Positions 35,597 through 38,225 of a DNA stretch of 64,000 nucleotides are shown piece after piece. Source of the stretch: Sphingomonas sp. (GTDB lineage Bacteria; Pseudomonadota; Alphaproteobacteria; Sphingomonadales; Sphingomonadaceae); contig JAFOMG010000023.1 in the NCBI GenBank assembly GCA_017418975.1, positions 17,095 to 81,094 on the forward strand. The letters run 5' to 3'. The notes below the pieces were generated by a model that ran no database searches, had not been told where the DNA came from, and worked only from the letters and a program-made list of their open reading frames with translations. Made by a program: the position numbers and the translations under genes. Positions within the stretch are counted from its first letter, which is position 1; every line of letters begins with the position of its first letter.

Positions 35597-35732
35597 TCTC
35601 CGGAGCCGGTATTTTCACGAGTCCGCAAGCTTTGCTCACCGGATATTAGCAGTTGGGGCCTAGTCTGCACGGCGTGGCGGTGCTGCGGGTCGGCACCGTC
35701 GGGACCAAATTTCTGGTGAGGAATTGAGGCAG

Positions 35733-36752
35733 ATGGTCGCGGCCAAGGCCGTTCGGGTGGCAAGCGGTTCCCAGGCCGCACGTGGCCTGTACGACCGCAT
35801 CGGAGAATTTCTGATAGACCAGCGGCTGGATCCCGATCCGGCCAATTATGCTTTCGCCTATCAGCTTCTCGCCAACCCCGATGGCCCGCTCGCCCGGGCG
35901 GTGCACGCGCTGACCGATGGCGGCGTCCGCCTCACCCGGCGCGACATCGAGACGCTGGGGTGCGACGCGCAGCCCGTCGCGGGCATGCCCACCGCCACGA
36001 TCGAGAAGGCCCAGGGGCTGGTCGCCCAGACCCAGATGCAGGTCGAGGGCTTTCAGGACATGGTCACGGCCATGCGCGCCGAGACGAAGGATTTCGGCCG
36101 CGACCTTGCCGCCAGCGCGCAGGCGATGCGCAGCTCGGGCGGCGACGATATCGAGATCGCCCGCATCACCGCGACGATGCTCGAGCGGGTCCGCAACGCC
36201 GAGGAGCGGCTGGAGACCGCCAATCGCGAGGCCAGCGAGCTGCGCACCAAGCTGGAGGAGGCGCGCGACAATGCGCGCCGCGATCCGTTGACCGGCCTGC
36301 CCAATCGCCGCGCCTTCGAGGAGGCCTATGCCGCCCAGGCCTCGGCGGGCGCGCGGATCTGCATGGCGGTGTGCGATGTCGATCACTTCAAGTCGGTCAA
36401 CGACCGGTTCGGCCATGTCGTCGGCGACCGGGTGCTCAAGGCGCTCGGCGAAGCGCTGTCCGACACCTGCAAGGGCCATCTCGTCGCGCGCTATGGCGGC
36501 GAGGAGTTCGTCGTCCTGTTCACCGGCCTCGACCTGATGGCGGCGCGCGAAGTGCTCGACCGGGCCCGCCTCGCCGTCTCCGCCAAGCGCTATCGCCTGC
36601 GCGAGACCGACGCGCCGCTGGGCGAGATCACCTTTTCCGCCGGCCTCAGCCCGGCGGCCCAGGGCGAAGTGTTCGGCACCGTGTTCCACCGCGCCGACCA
36701 GCTTTGCTACGCCGCCAAGAATGGCGGCCGCAACTGCGTCCGCGTCGATTGA
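35733..36752 (+). CDS. Diguanylate cyclase (GGDEF domain)
   Basis: 339 residues from ATG 35733, with GAGG seven bases upstream (a TTG at 35724 is also in frame). An N-terminal helical region of about 170 residues, ending in a coiled coil (MLERVRNAEERLETANREAS), is a likely dimerisation/sensor module of unknown type. The GGDEF domain starts RDPLTGLPNRRAF and has an intact active site GGEEF at residues 255-259. The allosteric RxxD I-site is not present upstream of GGEEF (CKGHLVAR occupies it), so product inhibition may be weak. No membrane segment; it is cytoplasmic. Makes c-di-GMP, which controls motility and biofilm. Confidence 0.93.
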   Translation: MVAAKAVRVASGSQAARGLYDRIGEFLIDQRLDPDPANYAFAYQLLANPDGPLARAVHALTDGGVRLTRRDIETLGCDAQPVAGMPTATIEKAQGLVAQTQMQVEGFQDMVTAMRAETKDFGRDLAASAQAMRSSGGDDIEIARITATMLERVRNAEERLETANREASELRTKLEEARDNARRDPLTGLPNRRAFEEAYAAQASAGARICMAVCDVDHFKSVNDRFGHVVGDRVLKALGEALSDTCKGHLVARYGGEEFVVLFTGLDLMAAREVLDRARLAVSAKRYRLRETDAPLGEITFSAGLSPAAQGEVFGTVFHRADQLCYAAKNGGRNCVRVD

Positions 36753-36759
36753 TCGGAAT

Positions 36760-36784
36760 CGGACAGTCGCTGTCCGCCTTTGAT
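36760..36784 (+). terminator. Short stem after the diguanylate cyclase gene
   Basis: CGGACAG-TCG-CTGTCCG, a perfect 7-bp stem, is followed by CCTTTGATT, eight bases after the stop. A weak intrinsic terminator is plausible. Confidence 0.45.
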
Positions 36785-36822
36785 TGGGAAATTACACCAT
36801 AGCTTGGTGTGGAATTTCCCAA
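36784..36822. promoter_or_regulatory. Long palindrome upstream of a sigma-54-type promoter (candidate enhancer)
   Basis: TTGGGAAATT-ACACCA-TAGCT-TGGTGT-GG-AATTTCCCAA: 10-bp outer and 6-bp inner arms pair perfectly, with only a 2-base bulge. The centre is about 98 bases upstream of the start point predicted from the -24/-12 element at 36874, the usual distance for an activator (bEBP) site. It could alternatively belong to the preceding gene's transcript end. Confidence 0.5.
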
Positions 36823-36873
36823 CCGCGCGTAACTTTCTTACTCGCGCTCAATGAAATCAATCACTTAGAAAAC

Positions 36874-36889
36874 TGGCACGCTCCCTGCA
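36874..36889 (+). promoter_or_regulatory. Sigma-54 (RpoN) type -24/-12 promoter
   Basis: TGGCACG-CTCC-CTGCA matches the TGGCACG-N4-TTGCA consensus in all but one position, and GG and GC are exactly 10 bases apart. The predicted start is near 36900, giving a leader of about 50 bases before the ATG at 36951. Confidence 0.75.
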
Positions 36890-36950
36890 ATCCATCTGGC
36901 ATCGGCAACGCCGGATGGTCCGGCAACCGACAATACAGGGAGTAACTATC

Positions 36951-37058
36951 ATGGCCGTTCGTATCAGCTCGTTCCAGCACAGCGTTGCCGTCATCGGCGC
37001 CGTCGTCCTCACCTATGCCATCGTGCTCTTCTCCTCGCCCGTGGTTCCGATCGCGTGA
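36951..37058 (+). CDS. Tiny predicted membrane/exported protein (35 aa)
   Basis: MAVRISSFQHSVAVIGAVVL is followed by a hydrophobic end (TYAIVLFSSPVVPIA): one membrane-spanning or signal-like segment of about 24 residues behind a short basic N-terminus. A good ribosome-binding site (AGGGAG) sits seven bases before the ATG. It is the first gene after the sigma-54-type promoter and upstream palindrome. No known family recognised. The translation signals and placement argue that it is real; the sequence alone cannot say whether it is a membrane peptide or an exported one (SSPVVPIA could be a cleavage region). Confidence 0.6.
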   Translation: MAVRISSFQHSVAVIGAVVLTYAIVLFSSPVVPIA

Positions 37059-37093
37059 CCCGTAGCGGTCAGCACGGAACGGAGAGGATAAGC

Positions 37094-37189
37094 ATGACGC
37101 GCAGCCTGATGATCGGGATGGCCTCCTTCGCCATCACCGCAATGGCGATCGCCACGGTCGGCCTGCAGGGTTTCAGCCACTTCGGCTGA
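37094..37189 (+). CDS. Second tiny predicted membrane protein (31 aa)
   Basis: MTRSLMIGMASFAITAMAIA then TVGLQGFSHFG: a basic start, a single hydrophobic helix and a polar aromatic tail. GGAGAGG lies seven bases upstream of the ATG. It begins 35 bases after the 35-residue ORF and would be on the same sigma-54-dependent transcript. No family recognised. Codon usage is normal for this genome. Confidence 0.55.
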   Translation: MTRSLMIGMASFAITAMAIATVGLQGFSHFG

Positions 37190-37397
37190 ACCCTGCCGGA
37201 CCGCCCGGCGGCGGCCCCCAACTCCGGCGGAAGCTCGGCCCGCCTTATGGTTTCCCCAGGCATTCCATCCGGATGCCGCGAAGCTCGAAACCGCCGAGAA
37301 ACCCGTGACGCGCTCCGGACATGAGCGCGGGACTTCAGCCCGGACTCCATCGCGGCCGTGCCGCCACCGCGCCCATCACGGCGCGCCGGCCGGCGCG

Positions 37398-38012
37398 TCA
37401 GGCGGCGGCACCGGCTCCCACCCGGCCGATCGGGGCTTGCTCGCCTCGCGAATAGGTGCCGGTGAGCAGCCCGGCGGCGATCACCCGGCCTTCCATCGCG
37501 CGCAGGATCGCGCCGCGCCCGGGATTGTCGCCGGGATCCTCGCCTTCGTTCAGCGCGAAGAGCTGGAAGGCGTAATTATGCTCGCCATGCCCGTTGGGCG
37601 GATCGGGCGGCAGCCAGCCCTCGACGAAGCGGCTGTTGCGGCCGACATCCTCCCCGTTCGGGCTGCCTTCGCCATCGGGCCCGATCTCGCCTTCCTTGAG
37701 GTCGCCGCCGAGCGGCAGGCCCCAGACGATCGCGTGCACCACCGGCTGCGGGGTCGGCGCATCGGGGTCCTCGACGATCAGCACCAGCCGCGCGGTGCCT
37801 TCGGGCACGCCCGTCCAGAAGAGCGGCGGCGAGATGCCCTCGCCATCGGCGGTGAACCGATCGGGCAGCCGCGCGCCGTTGGCGAAGGCCGGGCTGGCGA
37901 GATGGATCACGCCTTCGCCGGCCAGCTCGGGCCGGACGATCGCCAGCTTGTCGGCGCCGGCGCGAAATGGGCTCAGCGCCTTGCCGAGCCAATGGGGAAG
38001 ATGTTCGAGCAT
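37398..38012 (-). CDS. YbhB/YbcL family Raf kinase inhibitor-like protein (PEBP fold)
   Basis: 204 residues from ATG 38012 (GTG 38018 would add two). PEBP motifs are clear: GEGISPPLFWTGVP, LVLIVEDPDAP (DPDxP), VVHAIVWGLP (the HxIxW-type binding-site histidine) and the GxNS-like GRNSRF, then a YAFQLFALN core strand. Related proteins bind phosphate or phospholipid head groups; bacterial function is not known. No signal peptide. Stands alone on the minus strand. Confidence 0.88.
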   Translation of the reverse strand: MLEHLPHWLGKALSPFRAGADKLAIVRPELAGEGVIHLASPAFANGARLPDRFTADGEGISPPLFWTGVPEGTARLVLIVEDPDAPTPQPVVHAIVWGLPLGGDLKEGEIGPDGEGSPNGEDVGRNSRFVEGWLPPDPPNGHGEHNYAFQLFALNEGEDPGDNPGRGAILRAMEGRVIAAGLLTGTYSRGEQAPIGRVGAGAAA

Positions 38013-38225
38013 AAGCACCCCGGTGAGTGCCCGATCGGAGCGATCGGGATCTTGCGGGAAAAGCGCATGGCGGCGCCGGGAGTTTCATGCGGCAGCGGAG
38101 TCGGCGGCATGGATGTCGAGATCGAGATACGGGCGCGCTCGGCGTCCAGGCCCGCGGTCAGTTCCTCCGGATCGAGACTGTCGCCGTGGAAGCCCGGCGA
38201 CGCGTGGTCCGGTGCGGCGCCGCCA

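Follow-up and report, generated by a model that had tools for sequence, protein, structure and literature searches.

Which activator would drive a sigma-54 promoter that is followed by only two ORFs of 35 and 31 residues and then by a convergent gene, and what would the two products do? The question arises from a locus in a window of 64,000 nucleotides (the whole stretch of DNA that was analysed), which is part of the 4.69-Mb genome of a Sphingomonas sp. On the best reading of its sequence, the locus is a small PspF/sigma-54 operon that would encode two new inner-membrane microproteins. A preliminary description of this DNA had proposed two one-helix ORFs with good ribosome-binding sites and nothing larger after them, and all of these elements are present in the window, the next gene after ORF2 being a PBP-family gene on the opposite strand. 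Comparison also backs each of the broader elements of that proposal, namely the microproteins, the sigma-54 promoter, the upstream activator site and the envelope-stress setting. The features are as follows, in window coordinates:

35724–36752, GGDEF gene, the 5′ neighbour of the microprotein locus
36760–36776, terminator-like hairpin CGGACAGTCGCTGTCCG, 3′ of the GGDEF gene
36784–36800, minus strand, candidate PspF operator A, left arm of an inverted repeat, reading ATGGTGTAATTTCCCAA
36804–36822, plus strand, candidate PspF operator B, right arm of the repeat, TTGGTGTGGAATTTCCCAA, with two extra bases
36855–36867, plus strand, IHF-like site AATCAATCACTTA, perfect against WATCAANNNNTTR
36874–36888, plus strand, sigma-54 −24/−12 element TGGCACGCTCCCTGC, with GG at 36875–36876, N10 and GC at 36887–36888
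36902–36930, plus strand, 5′ leader hairpin, with inner stem 36910–36915/36919–36924 and outer stem 36902–36905/36927–36930
36951–37058, plus strand, ORF1, 35 aa, with AGGGAG at 36937–36942, 8 nt before the ATG
37094–37189, plus strand, ORF2, 31 aa, with GGAGAGG at 37081–37087
37398–38018, minus strand, convergent PBP-family gene (Pfam PBP, PF01161)

The sigma-54 promoter and its surroundings

The −24/−12 element has the GG-N10-GC form that had been ascribed to it, and the genome encodes rpoN (TIGR02395, 415.3 bits), so the objection that sigma-54 might be missing falls away. Counting 12 bases from the GC predicts a transcription start at ~36900, and a search for a sigma-70 promoter over 36700–37500 found none. 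As a class, sites of the form TGGCAYRN5TGCW are not enriched in this genome, since 14 were counted against 19 in the reversed control. In relatives, 67 of 70 ORF1 loci have the pattern where it would be expected, and 23 ORF1 loci carry the exact 15-mer TGGCACGCTCCCTGC; the three misses are a locus with spacing one base short (L009), one in which an upstream start was chosen (L135) and the second of two tandem copies (L162). An exact-pattern search with the promoter and leader together returned 29 stretches from named genomes, which comprise Sphingomonas species (S. leidyi and S. kyeonggiensis among them) and MAGs, one Sphingomonadales bacterium MAG and Hephaestia mangrovi.

Upstream of the promoter, the preliminary description had reported a 39-base palindrome centred about 98 bases from the −24 element. 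An inverted repeat does span 36784–36822, but it is imperfect, the right arm being two bases longer, and it is better described as two operators set back to back; from its centre (~36803) the distance is 71 bases to the −24 element and ~97 to the predicted start. A role for the repeat as the terminator of the GGDEF gene was considered and rejected, given that no T run follows it and that a separate terminator-like hairpin lies directly upstream. One terminator-like hairpin was found near the GGDEF gene, against a shuffle mean of 0.6, and a hairpin resembling it is visible by eye in several relatives.

The IHF-like site of the window is a perfect match to WATCAANNNNTTR, which we take to be the IHF consensus. 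Among 68 ORF1 promoters, such a site at −20 to −18 is perfect in 14 and has at most one mismatch in 29, with mononucleotide shuffles giving 0.3%; among 40 Sphingomonas pspA promoters, a site with at most one mismatch was found in none. E. coli pspG has a perfect IHF-like site at −17, and the presence of one here thus gives the locus a layout like that of E. coli pspG. According to one study, PspF binds two UASs at pspA and a single one at pspG, with assistance from IHF (PMC3709507).

Two predicted microproteins under purifying selection

The comparison set comprised 199 genomes, 121 of them in the window's genus. A single-sequence search with ORF1 gave matches in 29 of the 199, and a profile search gave matches in 81 at E 0.1. 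The 70 loci that were read come from 70 genomes (29 + 41), all of the window's genus; six profile matches within the genus were left out (G026 and G076, which lie away from their leader, and G094, G111, G114 and G118), and five outside it, which are partial with E > 0.02, were left uncounted. A model of the 5′ leader (R1), built from 65 loci, matches 97 of the 199 genomes, all within the 121 of the genus, and it recovers 65 of the 70 ORF1 loci (G006, G012, G030, G049 and G063 were missed). From the 32 genomes with a leader match only, 23 further loci were read, the rest being G003, G009, G037, G045, G073, G086, G094, G111 and G114. ORF1 and its promoter were therefore read in 93 of 121 genus genomes (70 protein-found, 23 leader-found). 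At every one of the 23 leader-found loci, the ATG of an ORF1-like frame of 35–36 aa lies no more than one base from the end of the model. ORF2 was found in 59 of the 70 protein-found loci and is missing in 11, and by eye it is present in 16 of the 23 leader-found loci and missing in seven. At one locus (L162, in G016), ORF1 occurs in two tandem copies after one leader, with ORF2 next.

Sequence comparison shows that both ORFs have evolved under purifying selection. ORF1 has a pN/pS of 0.352 (25 disjoint closest pairs, binomial p 3e-21) and ORF2 one of 0.387 (17 disjoint closest pairs, p 1e-8), although the all-pairs median dN/dS is less favourable, at 0.38–0.46 for ORF1 and 0.27–0.66 for ORF2. 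The preliminary description had looked to homologues for support, and there the starts and stops are conserved, with the −24/−12 element and the upstream site alongside; the bias towards synonymous change that it anticipated is likewise seen (pN/pS 0.35 for ORF1 and 0.39 for ORF2). The marks by which we recognised a microprotein, selection at the protein level together with a kept start codon, are thus present in the pN/pS ratios and in the 23 of 23 starts.

ORF1 and ORF2 each have a single hydrophobic segment, with Kyte-Doolittle 19-residue maxima of 2.24 and 1.89, respectively. Single-sequence structure models predict one helix in each, spanning residues 2–28 in ORF1 (mean pLDDT 87) and 3–30 in ORF2 (mean pLDDT 91). 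K or R occurs among the first 12 residues in 91 of 93 ORF1s, and the last 22 residues are without charge in all 93. By the positive-inside rule, the N terminus of ORF1 would be cytoplasmic, with the short uncharged C terminus predicted to lie in the periplasm. The three C-terminal residues of ORF1 are PIA in 51 of 93 sequences, including that of the window, and PVA in 25. Neither microprotein matches a family described in Pfam or NCBIfam: the Pfam search of both gave no match at E 1, and the NCBIfam search gave no meaningful match, with a line for an ADOP permease appearing for ORF2 only (E 0.21). Surveys based on domain profiles would consequently miss both ORFs.

The candidate activator and the leader

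The preliminary description held that the window does not suffice to name the activator, and suggested PspF-like or PrsR-like proteins as examples. An operator common to pspA promoters now makes PspF the most likely candidate; for PrsR, which the genome also encodes (TIGR02915, 663 bits), no tie to this promoter was found. The genome has a pspF (TIGR02974, 471.7 bits, above the cut-off) beside pspA, pspB and pspC, on another contig than ORF1, and the pspF-pspA region carries TTGGTGTATTTTCCCAA 93 bases before its −24 element. In a genome-wide scan with TTGGTGTANTTTCCCAA, the best match is the pspA promoter (no mismatch) and the next is operator A (one mismatch), followed by five other places with three mismatches; the reversed control found four. 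The corresponding site of E. coli pspA, TTAGTGTAATTCGCTAAC, is alike to TTGGTGTATTTTCCCAAC in 13 of 18 bases by our own count.

A PspF matrix was trained on pspA promoters only (39 promoters from 40 regions read, 25 distinct sites), with the poor training sites of G006, G009 and G067 kept. On this matrix operator A scores 21.8 bits, and the 17-base core of operator B (36806–36822) scores 9.9 bits, which is weak in this genome. The best score averages 16.1 over 67 ORF1 promoters and 2.1 over shuffles; of these promoters, 63 exceed the 95th percentile of the shuffles and four fall below it. When 2,048 genomic windows serve as the background, 64 of the 67 exceed the 95th percentile and 59 the 99th, with eight below the latter, although AT-rich windows (n = 144) score higher, their 95th percentile being 10.4 against an overall 99th of 10.5. 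Relative to the −24 element, the best sites of the 63 promoters above the shuffle percentile fall between −100 and −81 or between −70 and −61 in 53 cases and elsewhere in ten. Operators of at least 8 bits occur near −91 in 50 of 68 promoters, near −69 in 36 and at both places in 32, with a chance expectation of 0.24% per position window.

Specificity within the genome was assessed by scoring all 14 TGGCAYRN5TGCW (sigma-54-like) sites with a matrix that omitted this genome's own pspA site and from which the three poor training sites had been dropped. The pspA promoter scored 24.5 bits, the ORF1 promoter 21.9 and the next site 4.6, the operator being absent from the 12 others by this scoring. 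PspF is the likely activator of the ORF1-ORF2 operon because, among these sites, only the pspA and ORF1 promoters carry the operator. A composite operator-promoter pattern, searched over the whole genome, was found at pspA, at the ORF1 promoter and at one place on C24, with one hit in the reversed control. Another enhancer-binding protein could in principle serve instead, most plausibly the exosortase/PEP-CTERM regulator PrsR, with the likeness to the pspA operator reflecting a shared Fis-type site. The genome has proteins to choose from, as the PspF model matches 10 in all (eight below the cut-off and a PrsR-like one, besides PspF itself); however, the missing operator at the 12 other sigma-54-like sites and the coincidence of the genome's two best motif places with the pspA and ORF1 promoters make such an activator very unlikely.

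In four members of the genus (G007, G012, G062 and G088) the PspF model gave no match close to its cut-off, and PspA was found in three of them, G007 being the one without it. In G088 pspF is split over two frames, and G012 has a pspF-like start; in G062 the operator and promoter are seen, and the contig has less than 1 kb upstream.

The foot of the leader hairpin lies a base or two after the predicted start. Its inner stem, GCCGGA-UGG-UCCGGC, is paired in 87.6% of cells over 65 sequences, against 83.3% in shuffles, with 12 cells changed on both sides against 2.8 in shuffles, and slid controls were each lower. Single folds of the leader have a mean z of −1.3, with 45 of 65 below −1 and 15 of 65 below −2, and RNAalifold kept three pairs. 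A search for a known RNA family gave two matches only, both far below gathering scores. An mRNA can be protected by a hairpin near its 5′ end, and the leader hairpin may protect this message from decay. The conservation of the leader sequence and inner stem, and the finding of the leader just once in 95 of 97 genomes (the exceptions being G020 and G090), would also suit an RNA product: a small RNA formed by the leader and the message, with ORFs of minor importance. Against this stand the purifying selection on both ORFs, their kept start codons and lengths and their good ribosome-binding sites, as well as the few pairs retained by RNAalifold and single folds that are not extreme, and we consider an RNA product highly improbable.

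Probable place in the phage shock response

Sequence comparison establishes the promoter, operators of the kind found at pspA, the conservation of the leader and the selection on the proteins, whereas dependence on PspF in vivo, the topology, the effector role and the function of the hairpin are inferred. The locus is probably a second PspF target, away from the psp locus, whose two microproteins would act as phage shock effectors. Damage to the inner membrane would release PspF from PspA, and PspF would bind the paired operators at 36784–36822, with IHF bending the DNA at 36855–36867. Sigma-54 RNA polymerase, opened by PspF at 36874–36888, would then make a short mRNA that starts with the 5′ hairpin, possibly as a guard against decay, and that yields two one-helix inner-membrane microproteins, their N termini predicted to be cytoplasmic and their short uncharged C termini periplasmic. 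These would serve as membrane effectors of the response, jointly or with PspA, PspB or PspC, as E. coli PspG does, and an effector role is by analogy the most likely one.

Larger membrane proteins are frequent binding partners of single-helix proteins this small, which would fit a different role within the same operon and under the same activator: the peptides may be regulators that bind PspA, PspB or PspC and set the gain or the shut-off of the response. The operator common to the pspA and ORF1 promoters agrees with such a role, as does the kept C-terminal P-[IV]-A, which is what a contact motif would look like. Conversely, pspF is still present in genomes where no copy of the locus was found, and we regard regulation as a possible but clearly less probable function than that of effectors.

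The pspA operon of Sphingomonas has features of its own. It often opens with a small ORF, 35–49 aa long in the 20 that were aligned, which contains a P-x-A motif and a single hydrophobic stretch (for example, L031 2696–2803 in G000); the longer ones resemble a signal peptide with a short tail, and G107 seems to lack such an ORF. Outside the window's genus (L047–L076), many pspA-leading ORFs differ, being ~55 aa long, often with an MNIL start and an arginine-rich end. In the psp operon of G000 (L039 4272–5963), pspA, pspB and pspC are followed by five serial ORFs of 81–106 aa, whose N-terminal parts are hydrophobic and whose tails are alike; they are PspB-like by eye and gave no Pfam match at 0.001. 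Duplicates of PspB within operons are mentioned in part of a Psp survey (PMC11237479). It is conceivable, if doubtful, that phage shock in Sphingomonas works to a good extent via microproteins (the opener of the pspA operon together with ORF1 and ORF2), that the uncharged end of ORF1, almost always P-x-A, is periplasmic and read by a sensor, a protease or PspC, so that PspF output would be reported across the membrane, and that the 5′ hairpin makes for a long-lived message.

Among openly licensed papers found for PspF, phage shock or RpoN-linked small membrane proteins in sphingomonads, none concerns this operon as judged by its title, and the string "Sphingomon" does not occur in the portions of two Psp surveys that were available (PMC11237479; PMC9239133). 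The Sphingomonas pspA operon resembles the ORF1 locus in having the same operator at a similar distance from the −24 element, as well as an ORF of about 35–50 aa with one hydrophobic stretch, which there precedes pspA, and differs in having another leader and no IHF-like site. An hhalign profile comparison of ORF1 with the ORF that precedes pspA gave a probability of 5%, and the idea of homology between the two was rejected. In E. coli, small membrane proteins linked to stress, YohP among them, have fewer than 50 residues and one helix, as do ORF1 and ORF2. When YohP is produced, the proton motive force falls and PspA/PspC increase (PMC12719787), and YohP would on that account act upstream of the phage shock response; unlike YohP, ORF1 and ORF2 are placed by their promoter sequence at a predicted position downstream of PspF.

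The closest parallel is E. coli pspG, which in one passage of PMC9239133 is given as the only known E. coli PspF target besides the psp operon, with a role that is not fully understood. Like the ORF1-ORF2 operon as read here, pspG is a single unit away from pspA, with a −24/−12 promoter, an upstream PspF site, an IHF-like site near the −24 element and a small inner-membrane product. The differences are that pspG has one UAS (PMC3709507), compared with the two operators at the ORF1 promoter, and that PspG is one protein and has two predicted transmembrane helices (PMC2763126), compared with two one-helix proteins here. Membership of the PspG family found no support, as neither ORF has a Pfam match at E 1 and each has one helix instead of two. 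The ORF1-ORF2 operon is thus best read, by analogy, as a working counterpart of PspG outside the PspG family. As a conserved pair under a PspF-type promoter across much of the genus, it would represent a second solution with no sequence similarity to PspG, would point to more than one recruitment of small membrane effectors by the phage shock response, and would offer very small, tractable components with which to study how a membrane is repaired by PspF output.
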